DNA of 64,000 bases. Source: Limonium bicolor. Its lineage: Eukaryota; Streptophyta; Magnoliopsida; Caryophyllales; Plumbaginaceae. A program made the position numbers and the translations under genes. The stretch covers positions 94,957,298-95,021,297 of the forward strand of contig CM041783.1 of NCBI GenBank assembly GCA_023374045.1. Direction: 5' to 3'. Below, piece by piece: positions 1-64,000 of this stretch; position 1 is the first letter of the stretch; each line of letters opens with the position of its first letter. The notes under the pieces were generated by a model that was not told the DNA's origin, did no database searches, and worked only from the letters and a program-made list of their open reading frames with translations.

Positions 1-2026
1 CACATATTAAAGTACAAACAACCCACCTTTAGAATTAAAACCTTGTATAAGGTTAGACTTTGTCTAACTTTGTTCCACCTGAATATCCACTCCATCAAAA
101 TCAAGCTTTCTCTTAGCAATCACAGATCAACAAGAATTCCACACCAAGAGTAGTCACCAAAAATCATTCCAGAGCCTTTCAAGGCTAAGCCAAGCAACAA
201 AACACCCAAAACCATACTTAAACACAATTTTCCTTCTTTCCAAGTTTTAGCACACATATAACCTTACAAGACTTCCTTATACCTTTTACACTTCACCACC
301 TCTTACAACTTCAACCACAAGTCATATTAGGACCATAATGACCAGAGAACCATTAAATCCAATAACCAACACACAATTACACTTATTCAAGCTTAAAGCA
401 CACCTTTATCCCAAATCACTTCCTAGTAATTCGAATGACATCCCAAAGGAGTTTCGACCTGAATTTTTGACCATAGATATAAATTCGAAATATAAGAATA
501 CCCTCAAAATTTCAGCTCAAACCCATGTCGGAAACTCATCTAAACAACTCCTAAAGCTTAAAGCTCATTATTTTCCCTTGCCATGTCTATCCGACTTAAA
601 TATCTTCATTCGACTTCATTTTTTGACCATAACCATATGTTCACTATTAAAGACTACCCTCAAAATTTTAAGGCAAGATGAATTCGGGAACCTATTTAAC
701 TAAGTCTCAAGGCTTAAAACACCATTTAAGCCCTCCCACCTTGACCTAGCATTTTTATGTCTAACCACGAGTTCCCACCACCTATAATCAATTATTATGA
801 GTTAATATAGGTAGAATAACACACCAAACTCAACAAAATCCCATCGAAATCACTCAAGGAGTCTTAAAACACATTTTTCCTCCCTAAAAGTTCCCTAGAA
901 CTTATCCTACTTCCCAAAGGTATTTTCGCCTGAATATTTGATATTATTCTAGTAATAACTATCTAAGAACACTGTCAAAATTTCAGCTCAAGAGAAGCTA
1001 GGGTTCGGAAGTTACCATTAACAAGAGTTAAAGCTCAAAATCAGGGTTAAAGAAAGAAATGGTGAGCATAAGTGTTACCTGGAATCTCCTTGCCATTTTA
1101 GCCACGACACTTACAAGTCCCTTAGCTAAATGAAATCAATTCTTTCCACAAACCAATTCGTCCATTCACCAGCTCCTTCTCCCTCCTTGAAAATCTGTTT
1201 TTCCTTGATTTCTAGCTTGAATCGACTTCTCCAATGGTGGGTGTTGAGTTCTATGAGCTTCTATGGTGTTCTAATGGCGTGAGGTGAGTGAGGAAGGCAG
1301 GTAATCGGTTCCCATCTCATTCTTAAGGATGGCGTGAGTGAATTCCAATTTTACTTCATTAATTAAGTGTAATGATTACTAAGATAACCTTATCTCTTCC
1401 TAAGCCATTAGATTAGTGACAATTGTCTAGATTAAATCTCAGCCCTCCATGTGTGACCGGCCTTAATGATGAAGGAGACAAGTGGCATGGGTAATAAAGA
1501 GTATAAGACAAAATAGAATGATGTCTTCACTTACAGCCGTCGGATCGTAGATATTTTGCTTGGATAATCTCCACCTCCATGTGTGACCACCCCTCATTAA
1601 TGAAGGTGACACATGTCTTCTCTTGATTGAACCATGTGTAACTAATCATCTCTTGACACCTCGACGCTTACATCATCGTTATGTCATGCCGACATCATCA
1701 CTGCATCATCACTGCATCATCACTGCATCACCACTGCATCACCACTGCATCATCATGGTCAAAGTTGACCATTGACCAAGGTTTGACCAATGTCCAATGT
1801 TTGACCGAAGTCAGACCAAAGTTGACCTAGGTTTGACCACAGTTGACCGGGGCTTCTAGAACTCCATGCAACTCACCGAAATTTCAGTGTTTCTCGGAAC
1901 TTTCTGAACTAGGGTTTCTCCAAGGTTTCTTGGTTGATTCCCAACCACTATGGCTTCCTCGTGTTCTCTAATAATTCCTAAGGAACTATGGTTTCCATTA
2001 GGGTTACAAAAATTCGGGGTATTACA
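1..2026 (-). mobile_element. LTR copy 0, partial (cut by left window edge)
   Basis: This is the element-sense 5' two thirds of an LTR, ending at TGTAATACCCCG (minus strand) at 2026. By comparison with full copies about 1.0 kb of its other end lies outside the window. It contains the minisatellite, the TTGACC cluster and the diverged direct repeats. Private indels lie at about 1110-1240, where two bases of the usual word GTCCAAGGTCACC are lost. Confidence 0.95.
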
Positions 2027-2991
2027 TTCTCCCCCCGTTAAACAAAGCTTCGTCCCCGATGCTTAACTTACCACCATCATCACCAAATACCCAAACACAA
2101 TACAAATCTTTGACGACAAGGTAATACCACCAAGCATTAAATAGCCATAAATAAATGTCACATAATCATAGCACACAAGCACATAAGCACACAAGTCAAT
2201 TTCCAATACTGAGTAACATCATATTAATCATGTCAATAATTATATCAACACCTCATACATGGTGTCAAACTATTTATTTTCAAAGTATCCAACCACAAAA
2301 TCCCAAACTTTATGTTCTCCTTATGTAATCCACTTCATTAAAACATGAACCAACACACAATTCCTCATGATATAAAGCATATTAACACACATAACCATGT
2401 CAATTATTTTGTCACTCATCACCTATTACACACATACAATAACAATCCATCTACTTCAGACAATTCATCACATAGCAAAAAGATAATAATTTTGATCATA
2501 TAAACATGTCAAACACTTTAAGTGTCCTATTGCATCAATCTCAGATATTAATATCAAACTATCCTCAATTATTTCACCACTAATCAACACCTACGTCTTA
2601 CACCAACCACGCTTCCACTGCGCTACTCTGATCTAATTTTTCGTGATCACTTACAGGAAGCTTCAGGAATCCTCCAACCCTGCCATGGTCAGTGCCAGTG
2701 TTGAACTATCCTTCCACCTCAATTTGTTTTCAGTTTCCCTTGATCTGACCAGGATCAAGGTCAACCTTCCACGTCAGATTCAAGCAATTTGCACAATTAA
2801 ACAAGTTCCAGTTAAATCCTAGTATAGCCCCAATTATCCGACGACCACAACTAATTCCAAACAATCAAACAAATCGGTAACAAGCAACAAACACAATTCC
2901 CATCCCCACGGCTTGTCAAGTTTTTAAGCCTAGATTTAATCTTAACTCAACCAAAGCTCCCTAGAGACCAAACCTGCTCTGAATACCACTC
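2027..2991 (-). mobile_element. Internal region 1 (965 bp)
   Basis: Non-coding internal segment between LTR copies 0 and 1. The polypurine tract is intact at 2027-2036 and the tRNA-Met-like segment is at 2607-2632. The primer-binding site at 2976-2988 carries one extra A (GCTCTGAATACCA on the plus strand), which would interrupt pairing with the primer if real. Confidence 0.93.
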
Positions 2992-5900
2992 TGTAACACC
3001 CCGGTTTTCACACACTAAAATTTTCTTATTACTTAACCTTACTACATATTTTACAGCGGAGCTAACTAAATACACCTAAGTCAAACCGGAGCGCTCCCCA
3101 CGCCACACCCACACCAACTAGTGTGGATGCTAAGCTAATCCACCTACAACCTAACTCCCGGAACATGCTCCAAGGAGTTTACCACTTACAAATAAATAAA
3201 TTTCTAGCTATGTCGGCGCGTTCCCTTGTCCCAAGCTCAAGAGCAATATCACACAAAGAATCAACTTCACCTGCAACAAACCTGTGGCCAGCAAACAATC
3301 ACACAAAAGGGCCACAGGCACAAACCAGAAAACGTCAGCAAAGCTGAGTAACAAATATCACACCCTGTAAAATTCACTCTCTTTGAAAAAAACCTTTTTA
3401 GCAGCATAAAGGCACACATCAACACAAACAACCATGTTATCAACCACAAACACAAGTTTACAACACACTCACCTTCCTTGAGACATTTTACCTTAACACA
3501 CAACCACCTGTTCATAATGATATCACAATACCAGCAAACTCACCAGAGACATAAATCCAATAATATTTTGGAAACCACATAACAATTCCCACCAGTTTGT
3601 ATCTCAATTATTAACATTCCACCAATCCTCGGGCACACCGGTCTTTCGACAAAGAGCTACTAGGCTCTCGGCCCCTTGGACAAATAATTCCACCACCTCA
3701 CCCCATGTCCTTAAGTGTGCACACCCCCTATGAATCATCAGTCCATAGAGTAGATCATGATGGCTTAGCTCCAATACATTGGTAGCGAAAATTCAGTGAA
3801 TGGCCAACCATGGCTCGACAAATTGAAGGAGCTAACCATAGCTCAATAGTTTCGAAATATATATTTCCAAATTCACACTTCCACCACCATAAGTAATATC
3901 AACCTTTCCAACATATAAATATCATCCACAATCATATAAAATTGCTCAAAATAACCACCAACCAAAGGATAGCAATAAACAAGATTAATCACATATTAAA
4001 GTACAAACAACCCACCTTTAGAATTAAAACCTTGTATAAGGTTAGACTTTGTCTAACTTTGTTCCACCTGAATATCCACTCCATCAAAATCAAGCTTTCT
4101 CTTAGCAATCACAGATCAACAGAATTCCACACCAAGAGTAGTCACCAAAAATCATTCCAGAGCCTTTCAAGGCTAAGCCAAGCAACAAAACACCCAAAAC
4201 CATACTTAAACACAATTTTCCTTCTTTCCAAGTTTTAGCACACATATAACCTTACAAGACTTCCTTATACCTTTACACTTCACACTTCACCACCTCTTAC
4301 AACTTCAACCACAAGTCATATTAGGACCATAATGACCAGAGAAACCATTAAATCCAATAACCACACACAATTACACTTATTCAAGCTTAAAGCACACCTT
4401 TATCCCAAATCACTTCCTAGTAATTCGAATGACATCCCAAAGGAGTTTCGACCTGAATTTTTTGACCATAGATATAAATTCGAAATATAAGAATACCCTC
4501 AAAATTTCAGCTCAAACCCATGTCGGAAACTCATCTAAACAACTCCTAAAGCTATTTAAAGCTCATTATTTTCCATTGCCATGTCTATCCGAATTAAATA
4601 TCTTCACATTCGAGCTTCATTTTTTGACAAACCTAGTTCACTATTAAAAGACTACCTCTCCAATTTTAAGGCAAGATGAATTCGGGAACTATTATTTAAC
4701 TAAGTCTCAAGGCTTAAAACACCATTTAAGCCCTCCCACCTTGACCTAGCATTTTTATGTCTAACCACGAGTTCCCACCACCTATAATCAATTATTATGA
4801 GTTAATATAGGTAGAATAAAACACACCAAACTCAACAAAAATCCCATCGAAATCACTCAAGGAGTCTTAAAACACATTTTTCCTCCCTAAAAGTTCCCTA
4901 GAACTTATCCTACTTCCCAAAGGTATTTTCGCCTGAATATTTGATATTATTCTAGTAATAACTATCTAAGAACACTGTCAAAATTTCAGCTCAAGAGAAG
5001 CTAGGGTTCGGAAGTTACCATTAACAAGAGTTAAAGCTCAAAATCAGGTTTAAAGAAAGAAATGGTGAGCATAAGTGTTACCTGGAATCTCCTTGCCATT
5101 TTAGCCACGACCTTACAAGTCCCTTAGCAAATGAATCAATTTCTTCCACCAACCAATTCGTCCAGGTCACCAGCTCCTTCTCCCTCCTTGAAATCTTGTT
5201 TTTCCTTGATTTCTAGCTTGAATCTCCTTCTCCATGGTGGGTGTTGAGTTCTATGAGCTTCTATGGTGTTCTAATGGCGTGAGAGTGAGTGGGAGGAGGC
5301 AGGTAAATCGGTTCCCATCTCTCTTAAGGATGGCGTGTGAGTGAATTCCAATTTTACTTCATTAATTAAGTGTAATGATTACTAAGATAACCTTATCTCT
5401 TCCTAAGCCATTAGATTAGTGACAATTGTCTAGATTAAATCTCAGCCCTCCATGTGTGACCGGCCTTAATGATGAAGGAGACAAGTGGCATGGGTAATAA
5501 AGAGTATAAGACAAAATAGAATGATGTCTTCACTTACAGCCGTCGGATCGTAGATATTTGCTTGGATGAATCTCCACCATCCATGTGTGACCACCCCTCA
5601 TTAATGAAGGTGACACATGTCTTCTCTTGATTGAACCATGTGTAACTAATCATCTCTTGACACCTCGACGCTTACATCATCGTATGTCATGCCGACATCA
5701 TCACTGCATCATCACTGCATCATCACTGCATCACCACTGCATCACCACTGCATCATCATGGTCAAAGTTGACCATTGACCAAGGTTTGACCAATGTCCAA
5801 TGTTTGACCGAAGTCAGACCAAAGTTGACCTAGGTTTGACCACAGTTGACCGGGGCTTCTAGAACTCCATGCAACTCACCGAAATTTCAGTGTTTCTCGG

Positions 5901-6029
5901 AACTTTCTGAACTAGGGTTTCTCCAAGGTTTCTTGGTTGATTCCCAACCACTATGGCTTCCTCGTGTTCTCTAATAATTCCTAAGGAACTATGGTTTCCA
6001 TTAGGGTTACAAAAATTCGGGGTATTACA
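2992..6029 (-). mobile_element. LTR copy 1 (3038 bp)
   Basis: Complete LTR with TG...CA ends. It differs from the common form in patches at 3021-3110 and 4545-4690. There is a short duplication of CACTTCA near 4276-4290 and several indels at 5280-5340. The TTGACC cluster is at 5760-5851. Confidence 0.95.
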
Positions 6030-6994
6030 TTCTCCCCCCGTTAAACAAAGCTTCGTCCCCGATGCTTAACTTACCACCATCATCACCAAATACCCAAACA
6101 CAAATACAAATCTTTGACGACAAGGTAATACCACCAAGCATTAAATAGCCATAAATAAATGTCACATAATCATAGCACACAAGCACATAAGCACACAAGT
6201 CAATTTCCAAATACTGAGTAACATCATATTAATCATGTCAATAATTATATCAACACCTCATACATGGTGTCAAACTATTTATTTTCAAAAGTATCCAACC
6301 ACAAAATCCCAAACTTTATGTTCTCCTTATGTAATCCACTTCATTAAAACATGAACCAACACACAATTCCTCATGATATAAAGCATATTAACACACATAA
6401 CCATGTCAATTATTTTGTCACTCATCACCTATTACACACACAAATAACAATCCATCTACTTCAGACAATTCATCACATAGCAAAAAGATAATAATTTGAT
6501 CATATAAACATGTCAAACACTTTAAGTGTCCTATTGCATCAATCTCAGATATTAATATCAAACTATCCTCAATTATTTCACCACTAATCAACACCTACGT
6601 CTTACACCAACCACGCTTCCACTGCGCTACTCTGATCTAATTTTTCGTGATCACTTACAGGAAGCTTCAGGAATCCTCCAACCCTGCCATGGTCAGTGCC
6701 AGTGTTGAACTATCCTTCCACCTCAATTTGTTTTCAGTTTCCCTTGATCTGACCAGGATCAAGGTCAACCTTCCACGTCAGATTCAAGCAATTTGCACAA
6801 TTAAACAAGTTCCAGTTTAATCCTAGTATAGCCCCAATTATCCGACGACCACAACTAATTCCAAACAATCAAACAAATCGGTAACAAGCAACAAACACAA
6901 TTCCCATCCCCACGGCTTGTCAAGTTTTTAAGCCTAGATTTAATCTTAACTCAACCAAAGCTCCCTAGAGACCAAACCTGCTCTGATACCACTC
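6030..6994 (-). mobile_element. Internal region 2 (965 bp)
   Basis: Non-coding internal segment. Polypurine tract at 6030-6039 and primer-binding site at 6980-6991, both intact. Nearly identical to the common form, apart from a few single-base homopolymer changes. Confidence 0.95.
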
Positions 6995-9900
6995 TGTAAC
7001 ACCCCGGTTTTCACACACTAAAATTTTCTTATTACTTGAAAACTTACTACAATTTTTACAGCGGAAGACTAAATAACACCTAAGTCAAACCGGAGCGCTA
7101 CCGCCACACCCACACCAACTAGTGTGGATGCTAAGGCTAATCCACCTACAACCTAACTCCCGGAACATGCTCCAAGGAGTTTACCACTTACAAATAAATA
7201 AAATTTCTAGCTATGTCGGCGCGTTCCCTTGTCCCAAGCTCAAGAGCAATATCACACAAAGAATCAACTTCACCTGCAACAAACCTGTGGCCAGCAAACA
7301 ATCACCAAAAGGGCCACAGGCACAAACCAGAAAACGTCAGCAAAGCTGAGTAACAAATATCACACCCTGTAAAATTCACTCTCTTTGAAAAAAACCTTTT
7401 TAGCAGCATAAAGGCACACATCAACACAAACAACCATGTTATCAACCACAAACACAAGTTTACAACACACTCACCTTCCTTGAGACATTTTACCTTAACA
7501 CAAACCACCTGTTCATAATGATATCACAATACCAGCAAACTCACCAGAGACATAAATCCAATAATATTTGGAAACCACATAACAATTCCCACCAGTTTGT
7601 ATCTCAATTATTAACATTCCACCAATCCTCGGGCACACCGGTCTTTCGACAAAGAGCTACTAGGCTCTCGGCCCCTTGGACAAATAATTCCACCACCTCA
7701 CCCCATGTCCTTAAGTGTGCACACCCCCTATGAATCATCAGTCCATAGAGTAGATCATGATGGCTTAGCTCCAATACATTGGTAGGAGCGAAAATTCAGT
7801 GAATGGCCAACCATGGCTCGACAAATTGAAGGAGCTAACCATAGCTCAATTTTCGAAATATATTTCCAAATTCACACTTCCACCACCATAAGTAATATCA
7901 ACCTTTCCAACATATAAATATCATCCACAATCATATAAAATTGCTCAAAATAACCACCAACCAAAGGATAGCAATAAACAAGATTAATCACATATTAAAG
8001 TACAAACAACCCACCTTTAGAATTAAAACCTTGTATAAGGTTAGACTTTGTCTAACTTTGTTCCACCTGAATATCCACTCCATCAAAATCAAGCTTTCTC
8101 TTAGCAATCACAGATCAACAAGAATTCCACACCAAGAGTAGTCACCAAAAATCATTCCAGAGCCTTTCAAGGCTAAGCCAAGCAACAAAACACCCAAAAC
8201 CATACTTAAACACAATTTTCCTTCTTTCCAAGTTTTAGCACACATATAACCTTACAAGACTTCCTTATACCTTTTACACTTCACCACCTCTTACAACTTC
8301 AACCACAAGTCATATTAGGACCATAATGACCAGAGAAACCATTAAATCCAATAACCAACACACAATTACACTTATTCAAGCTTAAAGCACACCTTTATCC
8401 CAAATCACTTCCTAGTAATTCGAATGACATCCCAAAGGAGTTTCGACCTGAATTTTGACCATAGATATAAATTCGAAATATAAGAATACCCTCAAAATTT
8501 CAGCTCAAACCCATGTCGGAAACTCATCTAAACAACTCCTAAAGCTATTAAGCTCATTATTTTTCCCTTGCCATGTCTATCCCGACTAAATATCTTCATT
8601 CGACTTCATTTTTGACCATAACATATGTTCACTATTAAAGACTACCCTCAAAATTTAAGGCAAGGATTCGGGGGAACCTATTTAACTAAGTCTCAAGGCT
8701 TAAACACACCATTTAAGCCCTCCCACCTTGACCTAGCATTTTTATGTCTAACAACGAGTTCCCACCACCTATAATCAATATTATGATTAATATAGGTAGA
8801 ATAACAACACCAAACTCAACAAAATCCCATCGAAATCACTCAAGGAGTCTTAAAAACACATTTTTCCTCCCTAAAAGTTCCCTAGAACTTATCCTACTTC
8901 CCAAAGGTATTTTCGCCTGAATATTTGATATTATTCTAGTAATAACTATCTAAGAACACTGTCAAAATTTCAGCTCAAGAGAAGCTAGGGTTCGGAAGTT
9001 ACCACATAACAAGAGTTAAAGCTCAAAATCAGGGTTTAAAGAAAGAAATGGTGAGCATAAGTGTTTACTGGAATCTCCTTGCCATTTTAGCCACGACCTT
9101 ACAAGTCCCTTAGCTAAATGAATCAATTTCTTCCACCAACCAATTCGTCCAAGGTCACCAGCTCCTTCTCCCTCCTTGAAATCTTGTTTTTCCTTGATTT
9201 CTAGCTTGAATCTCCTTCTCCAATGGTGGGTGTTGAGTTCTATGAGCTTCTATGGTGTTCTAATGGCGTGAGAGTGAGTGAGGAAGGCAGGTAAATCGGT
9301 TCCCATCTCATTCTTAAGGATGGCGTGAGTGAATTCCAATTTTACTTCATTAATTAAGTGTAATGATTACTAAGATAACCTTATCTCTTCCTAAGCCATT
9401 AGATTAGTGACAATTGTCTAGATTAAATCTCAGCCCTCCATGTGTGACCGGCCTTAATGATGAAGGAGACAAGTGGCATGGGTAATAAAGAGTATAAGAC
9501 AAAAGAATGATGTCTTCACTTACAGCCGTCGGATCGTAGATATTTTGCTTGGATGAATCTCCACCATCCATGTGTGACCACCCCTCATTAATGAAGGTGA
9601 CACATGTCTTCTCTTGATTGAACCATGTGTAACTAATCATCTCTTGACACCTCGACGCTTACATCATCGTTATGTCATGCCGACATCATCACTGCATCAT
9701 CACTGCATCATCACTGCATCACCACTGCATCACCACTGCATCATCATGGTCAAAGTTGACCATTGACCAAGGTTTTGACCAATACTGTCCAATGTTTGAC
9801 AGAAGGCGTCAGACCAAAGTTGACCTAGGTTTGACCACAGTTGACCGGGGCTTCTAGCACTCCAGGAAACCACGAAAATTTCGTGTGTTATCGGAACTTT

Positions 9901-10021
9901 TGAACTAGGGTTTCTCCAAGGTTTTTGTGTGATTTCCCAACCATATGGCTTCCTCGTGTTCTCTAATAATCCTAAGGAACTATGGTTTCCCATTAGTGTT
10001 ACAAAAAATTCGGGGATTACA
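6995..10021 (-). mobile_element. LTR copy 2 (3027 bp)
   Basis: Complete LTR. The element-sense 5' end is altered: the plus strand reads GGGGATTACA instead of GGGGTATTACA. Indel-rich patches lie at 8540-8830 and 9770-10021. The second patch runs through the TTGACC cluster and adds bases between its words. Confidence 0.94.
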
Positions 10022-10992
10022 TTTCTCCCCCCGTTAAACCAAAGCTTCGTCCCCGATGCTAAACTCCACCATCATCACCCAAATTACCCAAACACAAATA
10101 CAAATCTTTGACGACAAGGTAATACCACCAAGCATTAAATAGCCATAAATAATGTCACATAATCATAGCACACAAGCAATAAGCACAACAAAGTCAATTT
10201 CCAAATACTGAGTAACATCCTATTAATATGTCAATAATAATATCTAACACCTCATACATGGTGTCAAACTATTTATTTTCAAAAGTATCCAACCACAAAA
10301 TCCCAAACTTATGTTCTCCGTATGAATCCACTTCATTAAAAACATGAACCCAACCACATTCCTCATGATATAAAGCATACTAACACACATAAACCATCTG
10401 TCAATTATTTTGTCACTCATCACCTATACACACATACAATAACAATCCATCTACTTCAGACAATTCATCACATAGCAAAAAGATAATAATTTTGAATCAT
10501 ATAAACATGTCAAACACTTTAAGTGCCTATTGCATCAATCTCAGATATTAATATCAAACTATCCCTCAATTATTTCACCAAAATCAACACCTAAGTCTTA
10601 CACCAACCACGCTTCCACTGCGCTACTCTGATCTAATTTTTCGTGATCACATTACAGGAAGCTTCAGGAATCTCCAACCCTGCCATGGTCAGTGCCAGTG
10701 TTGAACTATCCTTCCACCTCAATTTGTTTTCAGTTTCCCTTGATCTGACCAGGATCAAGGTCAACCTTCCACGTCAGATTCAAGCAATTGCACAATTAAA
10801 CAAGTTCCAGTTTAATCCTAGTATAGCCCCAATTATCCCGACGACCACAACTAATTCCAAACAATCAACAAACAAATCGGTAACAAGCAACAAACACAAT
10901 TCCATCCCCACGGCTTGTCAAGTTTTTAAGCCTAGATTTAATCTTAACTCAACCAAAGCTCCCTAGAGACCAAACCTGCTCTGATACCACTC
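10022..10992 (-). mobile_element. Internal region 3 (971 bp)
   Basis: Non-coding internal segment. The polypurine tract at 10022-10032 has one extra base and the primer-binding site at 10978-10989 is intact. Many single-base indels up to about 10880 make it the most diverged internal copy after copy 14. Confidence 0.93.
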
Positions 10993-13619: not shown

Positions 13620-13690
13620 TTGATTGAACCATGTGTAACTAATCATCTCTTGACACCTCGACGCTTACATCATCGTTATGTCATGCCGAC

Positions 13691-49931: not shown

Positions 49932-50897
49932 TTCTCCCCCGTTAAACAAAGCTTCGTCCCCGATGCTTAACTTACCACCATCATCACCAAATACCCAAAC
50001 ACAAATACAAATCTTTGACGACAAGGTAATACCACCAAGCATTAAATAGCCATAAATAAATGTCACATAATCATAGCACACAAGCACATAAGCACACAAG
50101 TCAATTTCCAAATACTGAGTAACATCATATTAATCATGTCAATAATATATATCAACACCTCATACATGGTGTCAAACTATTTATTTTCAAAAGTATCCAA
50201 CCACAAAATCCCAAACTTTATGTTCTCCTTATGTAATCCACTTCATTAAAACATGAACCAACACACAATTCCTCATGATATAAAGCATATTAACACACAT
50301 AACCATGTCAATTATTTTGTCACTCATCACCTATTACACACATACAATAACAATCCATCTACTTCAGACAATTCATCACATAGCAAAAAGATAATAATTT
50401 TGATCATATAAACATGTCAAACACTTTAAGTGTCCTATTGCATCAATCTCAGATATTAATATCAAACTATCCTCAATTATTTCACCACTAATCAACACCT
50501 ACGTCTTACACCAACCACGCTTCCACTGCGCTACTCTGATCTAATTTTCGTGATCACTTACAGGAAGCTTCAGGAATCCTCCAACCCTGCCATGGTCAGT
50601 GCCAGTGTTGAACTATCCTTCCACCTCAATTTGTTTTCAGTTTCCCTTGATCTGACCAGGATCAAGGTCAACCTTCCACGTCAGATTCAAGCAATTTGCA
50701 CAATTAAACAAGTTCCAGTTTAATCCTAGTATAGCCCCAATTATCCGACGACCACAACTAATTCCAAACAATCAAACAAATCGGTAACAAGCAACAAACA
50801 CAATTCCCATCCCCACGGCTTGTCAAGTTTTTAAGCCTAGATTTAATCTTAACTCAACCAAAGCTCCCTAGAGACCAAACCTGCTCTGATACCACTC
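49932..50897 (-). mobile_element. Internal region 13 (966 bp)
   Basis: Near-consensus internal segment. The polypurine tract at 49932-49940 is one G shorter than usual. Primer-binding site at 50883-50894. Confidence 0.95.
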
Positions 50898-53800
50898 TGT
50901 AACACCCCGGTTTTCACACACTAAAATTTTCTTATTACTTGAACAACTTACTACAATATTTTACAGCGGAAGACTAAATAACACCTAAGTCAAACCGGAG
51001 CGCTACCGCCACACCCACACCAACTAGTGTGGATGCTAAGGCTAATCCACCTACAACCTAACTCCCGGAACATGCTCCAAGGAGTTTACCACTTACAAAT
51101 AAATAAAATTTCTAGCTATGTCGGCGCGTTCCCTTGTCCCAAGCTCAAGAGCAATATCACACAAAGAATCAACTTCACCTGCAACAAACCTGTGGCCAGC
51201 AAACAATCACACAAAAGGGCCACAGGCACAAACCAGAAAACGTCAGCAAAGCTGAGTAACAAATATCACACCCTGTAAAATTCACTCTCTTTGAAAAAAA
51301 CCTTTTTAGCAGCATAAAGGCACACATCAACACAAACAACCATGTTATCAACCACAAACACAAGTTTACAACACACTCACCTTCCTTGAGACATTTTACC
51401 TTAACACAAACCACCTGTTCATAATGATATCACAATACCAGCAAACTCACCAGAGACATAAATCCAATAATATTTTGGAAACCACATAACAATTCCCACC
51501 AGTTTGTATCTCAATTATTAACATTCCACCAATCCTCGGGCACACCGGTCTTTCGACAAAGAGCTACTAGGCTCTCGGCCCCTTGGACAAATAATTCCAC
51601 CACCTCACCCCATGTCCTTAAGTGTGCACACCCCCTATGAATCATCAGTCCATAGAGTAGATCATGATGGCTTAGCTCCAATACATTGGTAGGAGCGAAA
51701 ATTCAGTGAATGGCCAACCATGGCTCGACAAATTGAAGGAGCTAACCATAGCTCAATAGTTTCGAAATATATTTTCCAAATTCACACTTCCACCACCATA
51801 AGTAATATCAACCTTTCCAACATATAAATATCATCCACAATCATATAAAATTGCTCAAAATAACCACCAACCAAAGGATAGCAATAAACAAGATTAATCA
51901 CATATTAAAGTACAAACAACCCACCTTTAGAATTAAAACCTGTATAAGGTTAGACTTTGTCTAACTTTGTTCCACCTGAATATCCACTCCATCAAAATCA
52001 AGCTTTTCTCTTAGCAATCACAGATCAACAAGAATTCCACACCAAGAGTAGTCACCAAAAATCATTCCAGAGCCTTTCAAGGCTAAGCCAAGCAACAAAA
52101 CACCCAAACCATACTTAAACACAATTTTCCTTCTTTCCAAGTTTTAGCACACATATAACCTTACAAGACTTCCTTATACCTTTTACACTTCACCACCTCT
52201 TACAACTTCAACCACAAGTCATATTAGGACCATAATGACCAGAGAAACCATTAAATCCAATAACCAACACACAATTACACTTATTCAAGCTTAAAGCACA
52301 CCTTTATCCCAAATCACTTCCTAGTAATTCGAATGACATCCCAAAGGAGTTTCGACCTGAATTTTTGACCATAGATATAAATTCGAAATATAAGAATACC
52401 CTCAAAATTTCAGCTCAAACCCATGTCGGAAACTCATCTAAACAACTCCTAAAGCTTAAAGCTCATTATTTTCCCTTGCCATGTCTATCCGACTTAAATA
52501 TCTTCATTCGACTTCATTTTTTGACCATAACCATATGTTCACTATTAAAGACTACCCTCAAAATTTTAAGGCAAGATGAATTCGGGAACCTATTTAACTA
52601 AGTCTCAAGGCTTAAAACACCATTTAAGCCCTCCCACCTTGACCTAGCATTTTTATGTCTAACCACGAGTTCCCACCACCTATAATCAATTATTATGAGT
52701 TAATATAGGTAGAATAACACACCAAACTCAACAAAATCCCATCGAAATCACTCAAGGAGTCTTAAAACACATTTTTCCTCCCTAAAAGTTCCCTAGAACT
52801 TATCCTACTTCCCAAAGGTATTTTCGCCTGAATATTTGATATTATTCTAGTAATAACTATCTAAGAACACTGTCAAAATTTCAGCTCAAGAGAAGCTAGG
52901 GTTCGGAAGTTACCATTAACAAGAGTTAAAGCTCAAAATCAGGGTTTAAAGAAAGAAATGGTGAGCATAAGTGTTACCTGGAATCTCCTTGCCATTTTAG
53001 CCACGACCTTACAAGTCCCTTAGCTAAATGAATCAATTTCTTCCACCAACCAATTCGTCCAAGGTCACCAGCTCCTTCTCCCTCCTTGAAATCTTGTTTT
53101 TCCTTGATTTCTAGCTTGAATCTCCTTCTCCAATGGTGGGTGTTGAGTTCTATGAGCTTCTATGGTGTTCTAATGGCGTGAGAGTGAGTGAGGAAGGCAG
53201 GTAAATCGGTTCCCATCTCATTCTTAAGGATGGCGTGAGTGAATTCCAATTTTACTTCATTAATTAAGTGTAATGATTACTAAGATAACCTTATCTCTTC
53301 CTAAGCCATTAGATTAGTGACAATTGTCTAGATTAAATCTCAGCCCTCCATGTGTGACCGGCCTTAATGATGAAGGAGACAAGTGGCATGGGTAATAAAG
53401 AGTATAAGACAAAATAGAATGATGTCTTCACTTACAGCCGTCGGATCGTAGATATTTTGCTTGGATGAATCTCCACCATCCATGTGTGACCACCCCTCAT
53501 TAATGAAGGTGACACATGTCTTCTCTTGATTGAACCATGTGTAACTAATCATCTCTTGACACCTCGACGCTTACATCATCGTTATGTCATGCCGACATCA
53601 TCACTGCATCATCACTGCATCATCACTGCATCACCACTGCATCACCACTGCATCATCATGGTCAAAGTTGACCATTGACCAAGGTTTGACCAATGTCCAA
53701 TGTTTGACCGAAGTCAGACCAAAGTTGACCTAGGTTTGACCACAGTTGACCGGGGCTTCTAGAACTCCATGCAACTCACCGAAATTTCAGTGTTCTCGGA

Positions 53801-53913
53801 ACTTTCTGAACTAGGGTTCTCAAGGTTTTTGGTTGATTCCCAACCACTATGGCTTCCTCGTGTTCTCTAATTCCTAAGGAACTATGGTTTCATTAGGGTT
53901 ACTTCGTATTACA
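50898..53913 (-). mobile_element. LTR copy 13 (3016 bp), altered 5' end
   Basis: Near consensus for about 2.9 kb. From 53790 it accumulates deletions, and the element-sense 5' terminus no longer reads TGTAATACCCCG: the plus strand has CTTCGTATTACA. It leads straight into the replaced stretch of internal region 14. Confidence 0.92.
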
Positions 53914-54100
53914 TTCTCCGTTCGTTGCGTTATCTTACTACATTGACGACGTTGTGCCTATTCTCTAGCACATAGGATCACAAAATGACGAAGTATATTC
54001 AAGACAAACAAGCAAAAACCACTACATAACATACAATACAAATACCATCAACATAATACACAACACACAGTATCCAAGCAAAACACAATACACACCAGCA
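53890..54100. other. Stretch replaced by sequence absent from other copies
   Basis: Where other units have the LTR start, polypurine tract and about 170 bp of internal sequence, this copy has CTTCGTATTACATTCTCCG and then unfamiliar sequence to about 53985. A/C-rich sequence (ACATACAATAC, AACACAATACACACC) follows to about 54090. It is slightly longer than what it replaces. No coding or known element motif is visible. It could be a gene-conversion patch, a filler at a repaired break or an assembly join. Confidence 0.8.
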
Positions 54101-54907
54101 CATAAGCACACAAGTCAATTTCCAATACTGAGTACATCATATTAATCATGTCAATAATTATATCACACACCCTCATACATGGTGTCAACTATTTATTTCA
54201 AAAAGTATCCAACCACAAAATCCCAAACTTTATGTTCTCCTTATGTAATCCACTTCATTAAAACATGAACCAAACCACAATTCCTCATGATATAAAGCAT
54301 ATTAACACAATAAACACATTCCAATTATTTTGTCACTCATCACCTATTACACACATACAATACCAATCCATCTACTTCAGACAATTCATCACATAGCAAA
54401 AGATAATAATTGATCATATAACATGTCAAACACTTTAAAGTTCCTATTGCATCAATCTCAGATATTAATATCAAACTATCCTCAATTATTTCACCACTAA
54501 TCAACACCCTACGTCTTACACCAACCACTTCCCACTGCGCTACTCTGATCTAATTTTTTCGTGATCACTTACAGGAAGCTTCAGGAATCCTCCAACCCTG
54601 CCATGGTCAGTGCCAGTGTTGAACTATCCTTCCACCTCAATTTGTTTTCAGTTTCCCTTGATCTGACCAGGATCAAGGTCAACTCCTTCACGTCAGATTC
54701 AAGCAATTTGCACAATTAAACAAGTTCCAGTTTATCCTAGTATAGCCCCAATTATCCGACGACCACAACTAATTCCAAACAATCAAACAAATCGGTAACA
54801 AGCAACAAACACAATTCCCATCCCCACGGCTTGTCAAGTTTTTAAGCCTAGATTTAATCTTAACTCAACCAAAGCTCCCTAGAACCAAACCTGCTCTGAT
54901 ACCACTC
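53914..54907 (-). mobile_element. Internal region 14 (994 bp), partly replaced
   Basis: From 53914 to about 54090 the sequence does not match any other copy. The polypurine tract and its flank are missing, replaced by about 60 bp of mixed sequence and then A/C-rich low-complexity sequence. The normal unit resumes at about 54090 (CAGCACATAAGCACACAAG). Indels continue to about 54540 and damage the tRNA-Met-like segment. Primer-binding site at 54893-54904 is intact. Confidence 0.9.
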
Positions 54908-57900
54908 TGTAACCCCCGGTTTTCACACACTAAAATTTTCTTATTACTTGAACACTTACTACAATATTTTACAGCGGAAGACTAAATAACACCTAAGTCA
55001 AACCGGAGCGCTACCGCCACACCCACACCACCAACTAGTGTGGATGCTAAGGCTAATCCACCTACAACCTAACTCCCGGAACATGCTCCAAGGAGTTTAC
55101 CACTTACAAATAAATAAAATTCTAGCTATGTCGGCGCGTTCCCTTGTCCCAAGCTCAGAGCAATATCACACAAAGAATCAACTTCACCTGCAACAAACCT
55201 GTGGCCAGCAAACAATCACACAAAGGGCCACAGGCACAAACCAGAAAACGTCAGCAAAGCTGAGTAACAAATATCACACCCTGTAAAATTCACTCTCTTT
55301 GAAAAAAACCTTTTTAGCAGCATAAAGGCACACATCAACACAAACACCATGTTATCAACCACAAACACAAGTTTACAACACACTCACCTTCCTTGAGACA
55401 TTTTACCTTAACACAAACCACCTGTTCATAATGATATCACAATACCAGCAAACTCACCAGAGACATAAATCCAATAATATTTTGGAAACCACATAACAAT
55501 TCCCACCAGTTTGTATCTCAATTATTAACATTCCACCAATCCTCGGGCACACCGGTCTTTCGACAAGAGCTACTAGGCTCTCGGCCCCTTGGACAAATAA
55601 TTCCACCACCTCACCCCATGTCCTTAAGTGTGCACACCCCCTATGAATCATCAGTCCATAGAGTAGATCATGATGGCTTAGCTCCAATACATTGGTAGGA
55701 GCGAAAATTCAGTGAATGGCCAACCATGGCTCGACAAATTGAAGGAGCTAACCATAGCTCAATAGTTTCGAAATATATATTCCAAATTCACACTTCCACC
55801 ACCATAAGTAATATCAACCTTTCCAACATATAAATATCATCCACAATCATATAAAATTGCTCAAAATAACCACCAACCAAAGGATAGCAATAAACAAGAT
55901 TAATCACATATTAAAGTACACCAAACAACCCACCTTTAGAATTAAAACCTGTATAAGTTAGACTTTGTCTAACTTTGTTCCACCTGAATATCCACTCCAT
56001 CAAATCAAGCTTTCTCTTAGCAATCACAGATCAAACAAGAATTCCACACCAAGAGTAGTCACCAAAAATCATTCCAGCCTTTCAAGCTAAGCCAAGCAAC
56101 AAAACACCCCAAAACCATACTTAAACACAATTTTCCTTCTTTCCAAGTTTTAGCACACATATAACCTTACAAGACTTCCTTATACCTTTTACACTTCACC
56201 ACCTCTTACAACTTCAACCACAAGTCATATTAGGACCATAATGACCAGAGAAACCATTAAATCCAATAACCAACACACAATTACACTTATTCAAGCTTAA
56301 AGCACACCTTTATCCCAAATCACTTCCTAGTAATTCGAATGACATCCCAAAGGAGTTTCGACCTGAATTTTGACCATAGATATAAATTCGAAATATAAGA
56401 ATACCCTCAAAATTTCAGCTCAAACCCATGTCGGAAACTCATCTAAACAACTCCTAAAGCTTAAAGCTCATTATTTTCCCTTGCCATGTCTATCCGACTT
56501 AAATATCTTCATTCGACTTCATTTTTTGACCATAACCATATGTTCACTATTAAAGACTACCCTCAAAATTTTAAGGCAAGATGAATTCGGGAACCTATTT
56601 AACTAAGTCTCAAGGCTTAAAACACCATTTAAGCCCTCCCACCTTGACCTAGCATTTTATGTCTAACCACGAGTTCCCACCACCTATAATCAATTATTAT
56701 GAGTTAATATAGGTAGAATAACACACCAAACTCAACAAAATCCCATCGAAATCACTCAAGGAGTCTTAAAACACATTTTTCCTCCCTAAAAGTTCCCTAG
56801 AACTTATCCTACTTCCCAAAGGTATTTTCGCCTGAATATTTGATATTATTCTAGTAATAACTATCTAAGAACACTGTCAAAATTTCAGCTCAAGAGAAGC
56901 TAGGGTTCGGAAGTTACCATTAACAAGAGTTAAAGCTCAAAATCAGGGTTTAAAGAAAGAAATGGTGAGCATAAGTGTTACCTGGAATCTCCTTGCCATT
57001 TTAGCCACGACCTTACAAGTCCCTTAGCTAAATGAATCAATTTCTTCCACCAACCAATTCGTCCAAGGTCACCAGCTCCTTCTCCCTCTTGAAATCTTGT
57101 TTTTCCTTGATTTCTAGCTTGAATCTCCTTCTCCAATGGTGGGTGTTGAGTTCTATGAGCTTCTATGGTGTTCTAATGGCGTGAGAGTGAGAGTGAGTGA
57201 GGAAGGCAGGTAAATCGGTTCCCATCTCATTCTTAAGGATGGCGTGAGTGAATTCCAATTTACTTCATTAATTAAGTGTAATGATTACTAAGATAACCTT
57301 ATCTCTTCCTAAGCCATTAGATTAGTGACAATTGTCTAGATTAAATCTCAGCCCTCCATGTGTGACCGGCCTTAATGATGAAGGAGACAAGTGGCATGGG
57401 TAATAAAGAGTATAAGACAAAATAGAATGATGTCTTCACTTACAGCCGTCGGATCGTAGATATTTTGCTTGGATGAATCTCCACCATCCATGTGTGACCA
57501 CCCCTCATTAATGAAGGTGACACATGTCTTCTCTTGATTGAACCATGTGTAACTAATCATCTCTTGACACCTCGACGCTTACATCATCGTTATGTCATGC
57601 CGACATCATCACTGCATCATCACTGCATCATCACTGCATCACCACTGCATCACCACTGCATCATCATGGTCAAAGTTGACCATTGACCAAGGTTTGACCA
57701 ATGTCCAATGTTTGACCGAAGTCAGACCAAAGTTGACCTAGGTTTGACCACAGTTGACCGGGGCTTCTAGAACTCCATGCAACTCACCGAAATTTCAGTG
57801 TTTCTCGGAACTTTCTGAACTAGGGTTTCTCCAAGGTTTCTTGGTTGATTCCCAACCACTATGGCTTCCTCGTGTTCTCTAATAATTCCTAAGGAACTAT

Positions 57901-57937
57901 GGTTTCCATTAGGGTTACAAAAATTCGGGGTATTACA
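54908..57937 (-). mobile_element. LTR copy 14 (3030 bp)
   Basis: Complete LTR; the element-sense 3' end is missing bases (TGTAACCCCCGG on the plus strand). Indels at 54940-55150 and 55915-56110. The GAGAGT step near 57183 is repeated once more than in other copies. Confidence 0.94.
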
Positions 57938-58911
57938 TTCTCCCCCCGTTAAACAAAGCTTCGTCCCCGATGCTTAACTTACCACCATCATCACCAAATA
58001 CCCAAACACAAATACAAATCTTTGACGACAAGGTAATACCACCAAGCATTAAATAGCCATAAATAAATGTCACATAATCATAGCACACAAGCACATAAGC
58101 ACACAAGTCAATTTCCAAATACTGAGTAACATCATATTAATCATGTCAATAATTATATCAACACCTCATACATGGTGTCAAACTATTTATTTTCAAAAGT
58201 ATCCAACCACAAAATCCCAAACTTTATGTTCTCCTTATGTAATCCACTTCATTAAAACATGAACCAACACACAATTCCTCATGATATAAAGCATATTAAC
58301 ACACATAACCATGTCAATTATTTTGTCACTCATCACCTATTACACACATACAATAACAATCCATCTACTTCAGACAATTCATCACATAGCAAAAAGATAA
58401 TAATTTGATCATATAAACATGTCAAACACTTTAAGTGTCCTATTGCATCAATCTCAGATATTAATATCAAACTATCCTCAATTATTTCACCACTAATCAA
58501 CACCTACGTCTTACACCAACCACGCTTCCACTGCGCTACTCTGATCTAATTTTTCGTGATCACTTACAGGAAGCTTCAGGAATCCTCCAACCCTGCCATG
58601 GTCAGTGCCAGTGTTGAACTATCCTTCCACCTCAATTTGTTTTCAGTTTCCCTTGATCTGACCAGGATCAAGGTCAACCTTCCACGTCAGATTCAAGCAA
58701 TTTGCACAATTAAACAAGTTCCAGTTTAATCCTAGTATAGCCCCAATTATCCGACGACCACAACTAATTCCAAACAATCAAACAAATCGGTAAACAAGCA
58801 AATAACAACAACAAACACACTTCCCTCCCCACGGCTTGTCAGTTTTTAAGCCTAGATTTAATCTGAACTCAACAAAGCCTCCCTAGGACCAAACCTGCTC
58901 TGATACCACTC
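57938..58911 (-). mobile_element. Internal region 15 (974 bp)
   Basis: Near consensus until about 58790, then indel-rich up to the LTR, including an added AATAACAAC-like stretch near 58800. Polypurine tract at 57938-57947 and primer-binding site at 58897-58908 are intact. Confidence 0.94.
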
Positions 58912-61900
58912 TGTAACACCCGGTTTTCACACACTAAATTTTCTTATTACTGAACAATTACTACAATAGTTTACAGCGGAAGACTAAATAACACCTAAGT
59001 CAAACCGGAGCGCAACCCACACCCCACCAACTAGTGTGGATGCTAAGCTAATCCACCTACACCTAACTCCCGGAACATGCTCCAAGGAGTTTACCACTTA
59101 CAATAAATAAAATTTCTAGCTATGTCGGCGCGTTCCCTTGTCCCAGCTCAAGAGCAATATCACACAAAGAATCAACTTCACCTGCAACAAACCTGTGGCC
59201 AGCAAACAATCACACAAAAGGGCCACAGGCACAAACCAGAAAACGTCAGCAAAGCTGAGTAACAAATATCACACCCTGTAAAATTCACTCTCTTTGAAAA
59301 AAACCTTTTTAGCAGCATAAAGGCACACATCAACACAAACAACCATGTTATCAACCACAAACACAAGTTTACAACACACTCACCTTCCTTGAGACATTTT
59401 ACTTAACACAAACCACCTGTTCATAATGATATCACAATACCAGCAAACTCACCAGAGACATAAATCCAATAATATTTTGGAAAACATAACAATTCCACCA
59501 GTTTGTATCTCAATTATTAACATTCCACCAATCCTCGGGCACACCGGTCTTTCGACAAAGAGCTACTAGGCTCTCGGCCCCTTGGACAAATAATTCCACC
59601 ACCTCACCCCATGTCCTTAAGTGTGCACACCCCCTATGAATCATCAGTCCATAGAGTAGATCATGATGGCTTAGCTCCAATACATTGGTAGGAGCGAAAA
59701 TTCAGTGAATGGCCAACCATGGCTCGACAAATTGAAGGAGCTAACCATAGCTCAATAGTTTCGAAATATATATTCCAAATTCACACTTCCACCACCATAA
59801 GTAATATCAACCTTTCCAACATATAAATATCATCCACAATCATATAAAATTGCTCAAAATAACCACCACCAAAGGATAGCAATAAACAAGATTAATCACA
59901 TATTAAAGTACAAACAACCCACCTTTAGAATTAAAACCTTGTATAAGGTTAGACTTTGTCTAACTTTGTTCCACCTGAATATCCACTCCATCAAAATCAA
60001 GCTTTCTCTTAGCAATCACAGATCAACAAGAATTCCACACCAAGAGTAGTCACCAAAAATCATTCCAGAGCCTTTCAAGGCTAAGCCAAGCAACAAAAAC
60101 ACCCAAAACCATACTTAAACACAATTTCCTTCTTTCCAAGTTTTAGCACACATATAACCTTACAAGACTTCCTTATACCTTTTACACTTCACCACCTCTT
60201 ACAACTTCAACCACAAGTCATATTAGGACCATAATGACCAGAGAAACCATTAAATCCAATAACCAACACACAATTACACTTATTCAAGCTTAAAGCACAC
60301 CTTTATCCCAAATCACTTCCTAGTAATTCGAATGACATCCCAAAGGAGTTTCGACCTGAATTTTGACCATAGATAAAATTCGAAATATAAGAATACCCTC
60401 AAAATTTCAGCTCAAACCATGTCGGAAACTCATCTAAACAACTCCTAAAGCTTAAAGCTCATTATTTTCCCTTGCCATGTCTATCCGACTTAAATATCTT
60501 CATTCGACTTCATTTTTTGACCATAACCATATGTTCACTATTAAAGACTACCCTCAAAATTTTAAGGCAAGATGAATTCGGGAACCTATTTAACTAAGTC
60601 TCAAGGCTTAAAACACCATTTAAGCCCTCCCACCTTGACCTAGCATTTTATGTCTAACCACGAGTTCCCACCACCTATAATCAATTATTATGAGTTAATA
60701 TAGGTAGAATAACACACCAAACTCAACAAAATCCCATCGAAATCACTCAAGGAGTCTTTAAAACACATTTTCCTCCCTAAAAGTTCCCTAGAACTTATCC
60801 TACTTCCCAAGGTATTTTCGCCTGAATATTTGATATTATTCTAGTAATAACTATCTAAGAACACTGTCAAAATTTCAGCTCAAGAGAAGCTAGGGTTCGG
60901 AAGTTACCATTCAAGAATCTATTATAGTTAATATAGGTCACAAAATCCATCGGGGGGGAAGGTAGTTACCAGTAATAACAAGAGTTAAAGCTCAAGAAAT
61001 CTAGGGTTTAACAAGAAAGTCAAAATTCAGGTGAGCATAAGTGTTACTAAATCTTCCCTTGCCATTTTAGCCACGACCTTACAAGTCCCTTAGCTAAATG
61101 AATCAATTTCTTCCACCAACCAATTCGTCCAAGTCACCAGCTCCTTCTCCCTCTTGAAAATCTTGTTTTCCTTGATTTCTAGCTTGAATCTCCTTCTCAA
61201 TGGTGGTGTTGAGTTCTATGAGCTTCTATGGTGTTCTAATGGCGTGAGAGTGAGTGAGGAAGGCAGGTAATCGGTTCCCATCTCATTCTTAGGATGGCGT
61301 GAGTGAATTCCAATTTACTTCATTAATTAAGTGTAATGATTACTAAGATAACCTTATTCTTCCTAAGCCATTAGATTAGTGACAATGTCTAGATTAAATC
61401 TCAGCCCTCCATGTGTGACCGGCCTAATGATGAAGGAGACAAGTGCATGGGTAATAAAGAGTATAAGACAAAATAGAATGATGTCTTCACTTACAGCCGT
61501 CGGATCGTAGATATTTTGCTTGGATGAATCTCCACCATCCATGTGTGACCACCCCTCATTAATGAAGGTGACACATGTCTTCTCTTGATTGAACCATGTG
61601 TAACAATCATCTCTTGACACCTCGACGCTTACATCATCGTTATGTCATGCCGACATCATCACTGCATCATCACTGCATCATCACTGCATCACCACTGCAT
61701 CACCACTGCATCATCATGGTCAAAGTTGACCATTGACCAAGGTTTGACCAATGTCCAATGTTTGACCGAAGTCAGACCAAAGTTGACCTAGGTTTGACCA
61801 CAGTTGACCGGGGCTTCTAGAACTCCATGCAACTCACCGAAATTTCAGTGTTCTCGGAACTTCTGAACTAGGGTTTCTCCAAGGTTTCTTGGTTGATTCC

Positions 61901-61984
61901 CAACCACTATGGCTTCCTCGTGTCTCTAATAATTCCTAAGGAACTATGGTTTCCATTAGGGTTACAAAAATTCGGGGTATTACA
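58912..61984 (-). mobile_element. LTR copy 15 (3073 bp), with insertion
   Basis: The longest LTR in the window. It is about 40 bp longer than the common form because of a patchwork insertion at about 60915-61040, with further indels to 61200. The region 58912-59110 is also indel-rich. Confidence 0.94.
60915..61040. other. Patchwork insertion in LTR copy 15
   Basis: After GGAAGTTACCATT the normal AACAAGAGTTAAAG is delayed by about 50 bp that includes ATTATAGTTAATATAGGT and CACAAAATCCATCG, then a run of G. These words resemble the sequence about 200 bp earlier in the same LTR (TATGAGTTAATATAGGT, CAAAATCCCATCG). It looks like locally templated filler or merged reads. Confidence 0.75.
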
Positions 61985-62938
61985 TTCTCCCCCCGTTAAA
62001 CAAAGCTTCGTCCCCGATGCTTAACTTACCACCATCATCACCAAATACCAAACACAAATACAAATCTTGACGACAGGTAATACCACCAGCATTAAATAGC
62101 CATAAATAAATGTCACATAATCATAGCACACAAGCACATAAGCACACAAGTCAATTTCCAAATACTGAGTAACATCATATTAATCATGTCAATAATTATA
62201 TCAACACCTCATACATGGTGTCAAACTATTTATTTTCAAAGTATCAAACCACAAAATCCCAAACTTTAGGTTCTCCTTATGTAATCCACTTCATTAAAAC
62301 ATGAACCAACACCAAATTCCTCATGATATAAAGCATATTAACACACATAACAGTCAATTATTTGTCACACTCATCATATTACACACATACAATACAATCC
62401 ATCTACTTCAGACAATTCATCACATAGCAAAAAGATAATAATTTTGATCATATAAACATGTCAAACACTTTAAGTGTCCTATTGCATCAATCTCAGATAT
62501 TAATATCAAACTATCCTCAATTATTTCACCACTAATCAACACCTACGTCTTACACCAACCACGCTTCCACTGCGCTACTCTGATCTAATTTTTCGTGATC
62601 ACTTACAGGAAGCTTCAGGAATCCTCCAACCCTGCCATGGTCAGTGCCAGTGAACTATCCTTCCACCTCAATTTGTTTTCAGTTTCCCTTGATCTGACCA
62701 GGATCAAGGTCAACCTTCACGTCAGATTCAAGCAATTTGCACAATTAAACAAGTTCCAGTTTAATCCTAGTATAGCCCCAATTATCCGACGACCACAACT
62801 AATTCCAAACAATCAAACAAATCGGTAACAAGCAACAAACACAATTCCCATCCCCACGGCTTGTCAAGTTTTTAAGCCTAGATTTAATCTTAACTCAACC
62901 AAAGCTCCCTAGAGACCAAACCTGCTCTGATACCACTC
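61985..62938 (-). mobile_element. Internal region 16 (954 bp)
   Basis: Non-coding internal segment, shortest of the set because of small deletions at 62040-62400 and 62650-62720. Polypurine tract at 61985-61994 and primer-binding site at 62924-62935 are intact. Confidence 0.94.
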
Positions 62939-64000
62939 TGTAACACCCGGTTTTCACACACTAAAATTTTCTTATTACTTGAACAACTTACTACAATATT
63001 TTACAGCGGAAGACTAAATAACACCTAAGTCAAACCGGAGCGCTACCGCCACACCACACCAACTAGTGTGGATGCTAAGGCTAATCCACCTACAACCTAA
63101 CTCCCGGAACATGCTCCAAGGAGTTTACCACTTACAAATAAATAAAATTTCTAGCTATGTCGGCGCGTTCCCTTGTCCCAAGCTCAAGAGCAATATCACA
63201 CAAAGAATCAACTTCACCTGCAACAAACCTGTGGCAGCAAACAATCACACAAAAGGGCCACAGGCACAAACCAGAAAACGTCAGCAAAGCTGAGTAACAA
63301 ATATCACACCTGTAAAATTCACTCTCTTTGAAAAAACCTTTTTAGCAGCATAAAGGCACACATCAACACAAACAACCATGTTATCAACCACAAACACAAG
63401 TTTACAACACACTCACCTTCCTTGAGACATTTTACCTTAACACAAACCACCTGTTCATAATGATATCACAATACCAGCAAACTCACCAGAGACATAAATC
63501 CAATAATATTTGGAAACCACATAACAATTCCCACCAGTTTGTATCTCAATTATTAACATTCCACCAATCCTCGGGCACACCGGTCTTTCGACAAAGAGCT
63601 ACTAGGCTCTCGGCCCCTTGGACAAATAATTCCACCACCTCACCCCATGTCCTTAAGTGTGCACACCCCCTATGAATCATCAGTCCATAGAGTAGATCAT
63701 GATGGCTTAGCTCCAATACATTGGTAGGAGCGCAAAATTCAGTGAATGGCCACCATGGCTCGACCAAATGAAGGAGCTAACCTAGCTCAATAGTTTCGCA
63801 ATATATATATTTCCAAATTCAACTTCCACCACCATAAGTAATATCAACCTTTCCAACATATAAATATCATCCACAATCATATAAAATTGCTCAAAAATAA
63901 CCACCAACCAAAGGATAGCATAAACAAGATTAATCACATATTAAAGTACAAACAACCCACCTTTAGAATTAAAACCTTGTATAAGGTTAGACTTTGTCTA
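62939..64000 (-). mobile_element. LTR copy 16, partial (cut by right window edge)
   Basis: The element-sense 3' third of an LTR (1062 bp), with a small patch of indels at 63730-63830 and one arm of the GC-rich inverted repeat damaged near 63230. The array clearly continues to the right. Confidence 0.95.

Follow-up and report, generated by a model that had tools for sequence, protein, structure and literature searches.

How does a retrotransposon that apparently encodes nothing come to fill a long stretch of a plant chromosome with its own units? The question is raised by a 64-kb window of the Limonium bicolor genome (contig CM041783.1, here C8; C8:94,957,298–95,021,297), in an assembly of 2.92 Gb in 2,686 contigs. 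The whole window consists of head-to-tail units, on the minus strand throughout, in which a long terminal repeat (LTR) alternates with an internal region, (LTR–internal)n. We regard it as likely that this array derives from one insertion which was duplicated by unequal recombination between its LTRs and then expanded in place.

Extent and insertion point of the array

The period of the repeat is ~3,996 bp, made up of an LTR of ~3.03 kb and a non-coding interior of ~0.97 kb. Successive copies of 15-mers in the window are most commonly 3,977–4,011 bp apart, and the 15-mer copy number along the window (median 13–15 per kilobase) is far above chance. A sequence-only reading of the window had claimed that both element junctions recur every ~4.0 kb in the same orientation, with a single LTR between internal regions and no foreign sequence, and these claims agree with what was found. 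The junction between LTR and primer site is present 16 times out of 16 at no more than 2 edits, with a spacing of 3,982–4,027 bp, and the junction between polypurine tract and LTR is recognised in 14 of 16 cases at up to 4 edits and in 15 of 16 at up to 6. The window contains 16 internal regions, 15 whole LTRs and two LTRs clipped by its ends. No foreign insertion between units was recognised in it, the only irregular stretches being a scrambled segment of ~185 bp and ~50 unaligned bases. The same reading spoke of a sixteen-unit array; the sixteen internal regions are there, but the window is only a slice of something larger. Once the flanks were fetched, the assembled array was found to span C8:94,948,314–95,167,074, that is ~219 kb with 55 LTRs and 54 internal regions (55 and 53, respectively, at full length by their BLAST limits). 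On either side the array closes with an LTR piece that extends to the LTR terminus. Unaligned stretches within it are all short (about 50, 64 and 185 bp), and the 263,990 joined bases of C8:94,887,301–95,151,290 do not contain a single N. The number of units is the assembler's estimate only.

The flanks of the array resemble another retrotransposon. The left one reads by eye as a reverse transcriptase with frame breaks, and the right one carries RNase H and integrase zinc-binding domains above the Pfam cut-offs, together with an integrase core match below the cut-off. The two flanks were joined into an empty-site query of 298 bases in which the GTAC that they share was kept once. At all 40 scored places, drawn from 3,286 first-look candidates, query positions 1–298 are matched at 98% over 298–300 target bases. 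Since the joined flanks are uninterrupted at each of these places, the ~219-kb array occupies one insertion point, which, judged by sequence, lies within a pol gene of Ty3/gypsy type that is present in high copy number.

The repeated unit and its relatives

The features of the window are given below in window coordinates, with boundaries taken from BLAST matches to an LTR piece (all ±5 bp).

1–2027, minus strand: LTR, cut by the window start (begins at window position -997)
2027–2993, minus strand: internal region 1 (primer site ~2,976–2,988, polypurine tract ~2,023–2,035)
2994–6030, minus strand: LTR
6030–6996, minus strand: internal region 2
6997–10022, minus strand: LTR
10023–10994, minus strand: internal region 3
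10995–14024, minus strand: LTR
14024–14991, minus strand: internal region 4
14992–18005, minus strand: LTR
18005–18973, minus strand: internal region 5
18974–22006, minus strand: LTR
22006–22974, minus strand: internal region 6
22975–25994, minus strand: LTR
25994–26955, minus strand: internal region 7
26956–29977, minus strand: LTR
29977–30945, minus strand: internal region 8
30946–33965, minus strand: LTR
33965–34931, minus strand: internal region 9
34932–37960, minus strand: LTR
37960–38927, minus strand: internal region 10
38928–41952, minus strand: LTR
41959–42911, minus strand: internal region 11 (polypurine-tract junction unrecognised at up to 4 edits)
42912–45934, minus strand: LTR
45934–46900, minus strand: internal region 12
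46901–49932, minus strand: LTR
49932–50899, minus strand: internal region 13
50900–53902, minus strand: LTR (first 20 bases unaligned)
53903–54087, minus strand: scrambled ~185 bp replacing the polypurine-tract end of internal region 14 (probably low quality)
54088–54909, minus strand: internal region 14 (826 of 967 positions aligned)
54910–57938, minus strand: LTR
57938–58913, minus strand: internal region 15
58914–61985, minus strand: LTR (~50 unaligned bases at ~60,912–60,960)
61985–62940, minus strand: internal region 16
62941–64000, minus strand: LTR, cut by the window end (runs to window position 65,962)

In internal region 14, 141 bases on the polypurine side are unaligned, and the scrambled segment next to it is probably a low-quality patch of the consensus.

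Read on the minus strand, each unit starts with an LTR of the TG...CA type, which begins with TGTAATACC and ends with GTGTTACA. It is followed by a GAG spacer, the primer site TGGTATCAGAGC (with an extra T in the first unit), the ~0.97-kb interior and a polypurine tract ending in GGGGGGAGAA, directly after which the next LTR starts. The hallmarks of an LTR retrotransposon are thus present, and there are dispersed copies as well, with a target-site duplication (TSD) at C6 and no matching one at C5. Seven of the 14 stop-to-stop open reading frames of at least 60 amino acids in one unit, including all four on the sense strand, were compared with Pfam, and none had a match at E<=1; a coding remnant was rejected on this basis. 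The description of the element as gutted, put forward from the letters alone, is borne out in the sense that it is non-coding. As far as these seven frames indicate, the element is non-autonomous and devoid of gag/pol domains.

Relatives are abundant in the genome. A 24-base pattern across the LTR–primer-site junction has 1,824 + 1,763 = 3,587 matches at no more than 2 mismatches (the reversed control has 0), a figure that may take in related families, the pattern being largely primer site. The corresponding counts are 414 + 362 = 776 for a 28-base polypurine junction and 200 + 143 = 343 for a 43-base internal piece; the latter was detected in 47 of 56 internal regions (the 54 of the C8 array and those of the C5 and C6 copies), so the counts are low. 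Clusters on the same strand within 9.5 kb were counted among the first 100 listed places for each pattern, in three lists that overlap. They take in 49 of the exact LTR–primer-site junctions (15 clusters; 0.055 such neighbours are expected by chance), 36 of the polypurine junctions (13 clusters) and 44 of the internal pieces (14 clusters). Among the matches listed, the regular spacing varies by locus from about 1.5 to 4.6 kb, and the internal length between both junction patterns ranges from 764 to 1,569 bp across 30 pairs. These differences in spacing and internal length indicate that arrays arose repeatedly in different subfamilies.

Nine other clusters were tried and both ends were obtained for five, all of which (5/5) are bounded by a perfect 5-bp TSD. 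Their end pieces match the C8 LTR at 90–99.7%. They are listed here with the number of LTRs (L) and internal regions (I), deduced from overall length and the positions of the junctions rather than by reading the interiors.

C1:146,679,725–146,690,453: L3I2, TSD GAACA/GAACA
C1:258,418,390–258,429,091: L3I2, TSD ATGAC/ATGAC
C2:200,663,744–200,688,221: L6I5, TSD ATCAT/ATCAT
C4:142,194,372–142,205,483: L3I2, TSD GGGGT/GGGGT
C2:386,329,024–386,340,396: L3I2, TSD ATAAT/ATAAT

A single copy (L2I1) of ~7.0 kb at C6:105.15 Mb is flanked by CTCAG/CTCAG. Dispersed single copies with TSDs, for which the sequence-only reading suggested looking, thus exist, although a second one, at C5:273.16 Mb, departs from this pattern (see below). 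The largest regular array besides that of C8, among the matches listed, extends from C2:239,033,536 to at least 239,099,103; it belongs to a related subfamily with a ~4.365-kb period, comprises ~15 units as estimated from 13 exact junctions, and its lower end was found. At C1:492,569,001–492,577,950 the junction spacing implies a middle LTR of ~2 kb and both end pieces lie inside an LTR, past the 2-kb limit, which may mean that the outer LTRs exceed the middle one in length. Three LTR–primer-site junctions ~1.5 kb apart at C1:522,236,907–522,239,935 correspond to much shorter units of the same or a related family. Four high-scoring minus-strand matches to the window unit, with array-like spacing, are found at C7:5.630–5.665 Mb.

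Unit divergence and the origin of the array

The differences between the units of the C8 array look more like error than like evolution. In the LTR alignment, 601 of the 711 minor alleles are private to a single unit. Transitions and transversions stand at 280:431 in the LTRs and 99:207 in the internal regions, and rare LTR cells comprise 1,229 indels versus 752 substitutions. Rare events are also bursty, as 1,266 of 1,927 in the LTRs and 571 of 780 in the internal regions have another one within 20 columns, where 547 and 424 are expected. Few-gap columns contain 77 minor alleles that 2–20 units have in common, and for only one of these are all carriers locally clean. Most of the differences would accordingly be unpolished long-read consensus error, not mutation, and, being near-random, they leave the order of the units uncheckable from real variants. 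The C6 copy is equally noisy, with 7 substitutions and 34 small indels between its own LTRs, so the noise is not peculiar to the array. An error-like spectrum of substitutions and indels in both places affects any dating, and dating from overall unit divergence was rejected because of the near-random spectrum and the bursts.

The clean units tell more. Six of the 54 internal regions have exactly the same sequence, whereas no two of the 55 LTRs do. Among the 14 clean internal regions the divergence is 6.9e-4 per site, with transitions only; among the seven clean LTRs it is 1.4e-3 per site, with transversions still in excess (28:61). At a substitution rate of 1.3e-8 per site per year, the former value would correspond very roughly to 27,000 years, a figure biased low by the choice of clean units. 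The near identity of these units indicates an array that is either young or homogenised. Nevertheless, the internal region of the C6 copy is identical to a clean array unit over 969 bases, and over 3,027 positions its 3' LTR shows 5 small indels but not one substitution relative to a clean array LTR, from which its 5' LTR differs by 7 substitutions and 35 indels. As this copy lies on a different chromosome and is just as close, recent origin seems a better account of the identity than homogenisation inside the array by itself. The identical internal region and substitution-free 3' LTR at C6 also tentatively suggest that the giant array itself may be a source of new dispersed copies.

Several scenarios could produce such an array. 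In the one that we favor, a short non-autonomous LTR retrotransposon, with two ~3.03-kb LTRs around a ~0.97-kb non-coding middle, would have inserted once into an older Ty3/gypsy-type pol gene. Misaligned recombination between its two long LTRs, through unequal exchange between sister chromatids or homologues or through break repair with the wrong LTR, would then have generated LTR-int-LTR-int-LTR, and later unequal exchange between the 4-kb units would have enlarged this structure in place to ~54 units. We infer these recombination steps, their order and the growth in place, as opposed to arrival as a multimer. To our knowledge, a cDNA of 219 kb is far above what a retrotransposon particle can carry, so most of the growth, at least, would have followed insertion.

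Some observations weigh against this scenario. The duplication at the C8 target is not a clean 5-bp one: each flank carries GTAC, and a further two bases adjoin the 3' LTR, which are the same as the start of the LTR–primer-site spacer and could result from incomplete trimming at integration or from assembly noise. Moreover, mean distance is nearly flat with respect to the lag between units (from 0.0107 at lag 1 to 0.0097 at lag 15 for the LTRs, and from 0.0135 to 0.0157 for the internal regions), leaving no clear trace of stepwise local duplication. Neither lag distances nor shared alleles revealed any clear positional or higher-order structure in the array. As most of the variation looks like assembly error, the flat values say little for or against stepwise growth. 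The direct signature of LTR–LTR exchange would be a chimeric middle LTR. Elsewhere in the genome, one or both ends were not found in four of the nine other clusters, for which short end pieces were fetched. The upper piece at C2:239.04 Mb and the lower one at C1:445.98 Mb have no LTR match at all, and these arrays may be truncated or the position of their ends misforecast; at C4:76.80 Mb, the lower end piece lies inside an LTR, as do both pieces at C1:492.57 Mb. Finally, the single copy at C5:273.16 Mb lacks a matching TSD (TGGGT/GTGGT).

Alternatively, a one-LTR extrachromosomal circle or a rolling-circle concatemer could have entered a resident single copy by homologous recombination, so that many units were gained at once. 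Such an event would likewise leave LTR ends and one target site, and a single burst would account for the weak positional structure and the near identity of the clean units. Yet none of the present observations singles it out, and the frequent small arrays are already explained by ordinary unequal exchange without a circle, which makes this route improbable. The sequence-only reading had proposed either recombination or rolling-circle copies as the origin; recombination remains the natural route, whereas the LTR-bounded ends and the single target site rule out that a circle was inserted at a random break by end joining.

Integration as a short multimer, produced by template switching or by read-through transcription of a circle or array and enlarged afterwards by recombination, would fit the small arrays with perfect TSDs. 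The accessible parts of the literature leave insertion as a multimer and growth in place both open for tandem LTR elements and for Cassandra (PMC11899658, PMC7215508). However, multimer integration alone could not yield ~219 kb, and the extra step is unneeded. This route, which overlaps with the favored scenario as to the growth step (the two do not exclude each other), seems slightly less probable still than recombination with a circle.

The length of the array could also be largely an artefact, a few real units having been expanded by the assembler from noisy long reads. The bursty, indel-rich LTR differences, their transition/transversion ratio near that of random error and the unit order that the shared alleles leave uncheckable are what this would predict. 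Nevertheless, assemblies collapse repeats more often than they expand them, the joined C8 sequence is free of N, the 55 LTRs carry different sets of errors, and there are independent arrays with different periods and intact TSDs, all of which makes an artefact very unlikely. Several independent insertions or nesting can be rejected, given the single target site and the lack of recognised foreign DNA between units.

Known tandem retrotransposons and the satellite question

The comparisons made here draw on the accessible parts of the cited papers. Tandem LTR-retrotransposon insertions that share LTRs and have one TSD are common in plants, including rice, Arabidopsis, almond and cotton, and Tekay elements are enriched among those of rice (PMC11899658). 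The C8 array resembles them in its alternating LTRs and internal regions, shared LTRs and LTR at both ends. Those loci have one TSD for the whole; at C8, a shared GTAC and two extra bases accompany the single insertion point. TLI1 and TLI2, inferred to be single insertions, have two internal regions and three LTRs each, and each of the 28 curated rice loci has coding sequence for retrotransposon domains (PMC11899658), unlike the ~54 non-coding units and ~219 kb of C8.

The non-coding nature of the element and its LxIy structure are reminiscent of the tandem arrays (TA-TRIMs) of terminal-repeat retrotransposons in miniature (TRIMs) in maize, which extend up to L5I4 and include an L3I2 with TSD GGGTT and an L5I4 with TSD ATAAT (PMC4717578), and of Wukong, which has up to 7 LTRs (PMC4528315). 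Nevertheless, TRIMs are defined as shorter than 1.5 kb (PMC4717578), whereas the present element has LTRs of ~3.03 kb, measures ~7.0 kb in its L2I1 copy at C6 and forms a far longer array. With Cassandra, whose arrays reach up to 12 repeats according to the discussion and "at least 12" according to the abstract of PMC7215508, it shares its non-autonomy, the primer site and the head-to-tail arrangement. Unlike Cassandra, the unit has no 5S ribosomal RNA match in Rfam at E<=1, and nothing at a gathering score, in window positions 1–9000, so that identity with Cassandra was rejected.

The Cassandra LTR is, besides, about ten times shorter than that of C8. Large retrotransposon derivatives (LARDs) have long LTRs, a long interior and no protein-coding capacity, and are moved by an autonomous partner. 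The C8 element is like them in its long LTRs and non-coding interior; unlike in typical LARDs, this interior is only ~1 kb. LARDs are also named in PMC7215508.

Among long arrays derived from retrotransposons, C8 may be compared with Sobo of wild potato, a gypsy-LTR-derived repeat with a 4.7-kb monomer and ~360 kb, and with CRM1TR and CRM4TR of maize, whose monomers join part of an LTR to part of an untranslated region at new joints (PMC3648361). Unlike the CRM monomers, the C8 units consist of a complete LTR and a complete internal region (1 of 54 is damaged), and both element ends are kept. Satellites that arise from short tandem repeats inside LTR elements follow a different route (PMC7004042). 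No LxIy array of ~55 LTRs was found among the open-licence papers searched and, as far as seen, the C8 array is by its size an extreme case of the published tandem LTR arrays.

That an array of such length retains both element ends at one insertion point, as the empty sites confirm, is an argument that expansion in place can bring an ordinary insertion up to the size of a satellite. Smaller TSD-bearing arrays would represent intermediate steps and offer a testing ground for the predicted chimeric middle LTR. The family forms a series of sizes (L2I1, L3I2, L6I5, an array of ~15 units and L55I54). Only tentatively, we propose that one insertion grew in place into a ~219-kb proto-satellite with long monomers, and did so within roughly the past few tens of thousands of years; that the series, most of whose members have TSDs, allows the passage from element to satellite to be read step by step; and that the giant array may seed dispersed copies. 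Pipelines limited to tens of kilobases, such as the one behind the IDENTAM set with its locus-size ceiling of 40 kb (PMC11899658), will miss such arrays.

The satellite traits concern one fully studied locus, where ~219 kb are homogeneous. The second large cluster of the family (C4:62,072,313–62,212,080) is irregular, with spacings of ~3.69 kb and with 5 of 14 gaps that do not come close to a multiple of this value, so the cluster is either interrupted or of complex structure. Plus-strand copies lie near it, at C4:61.947–61.977 Mb.

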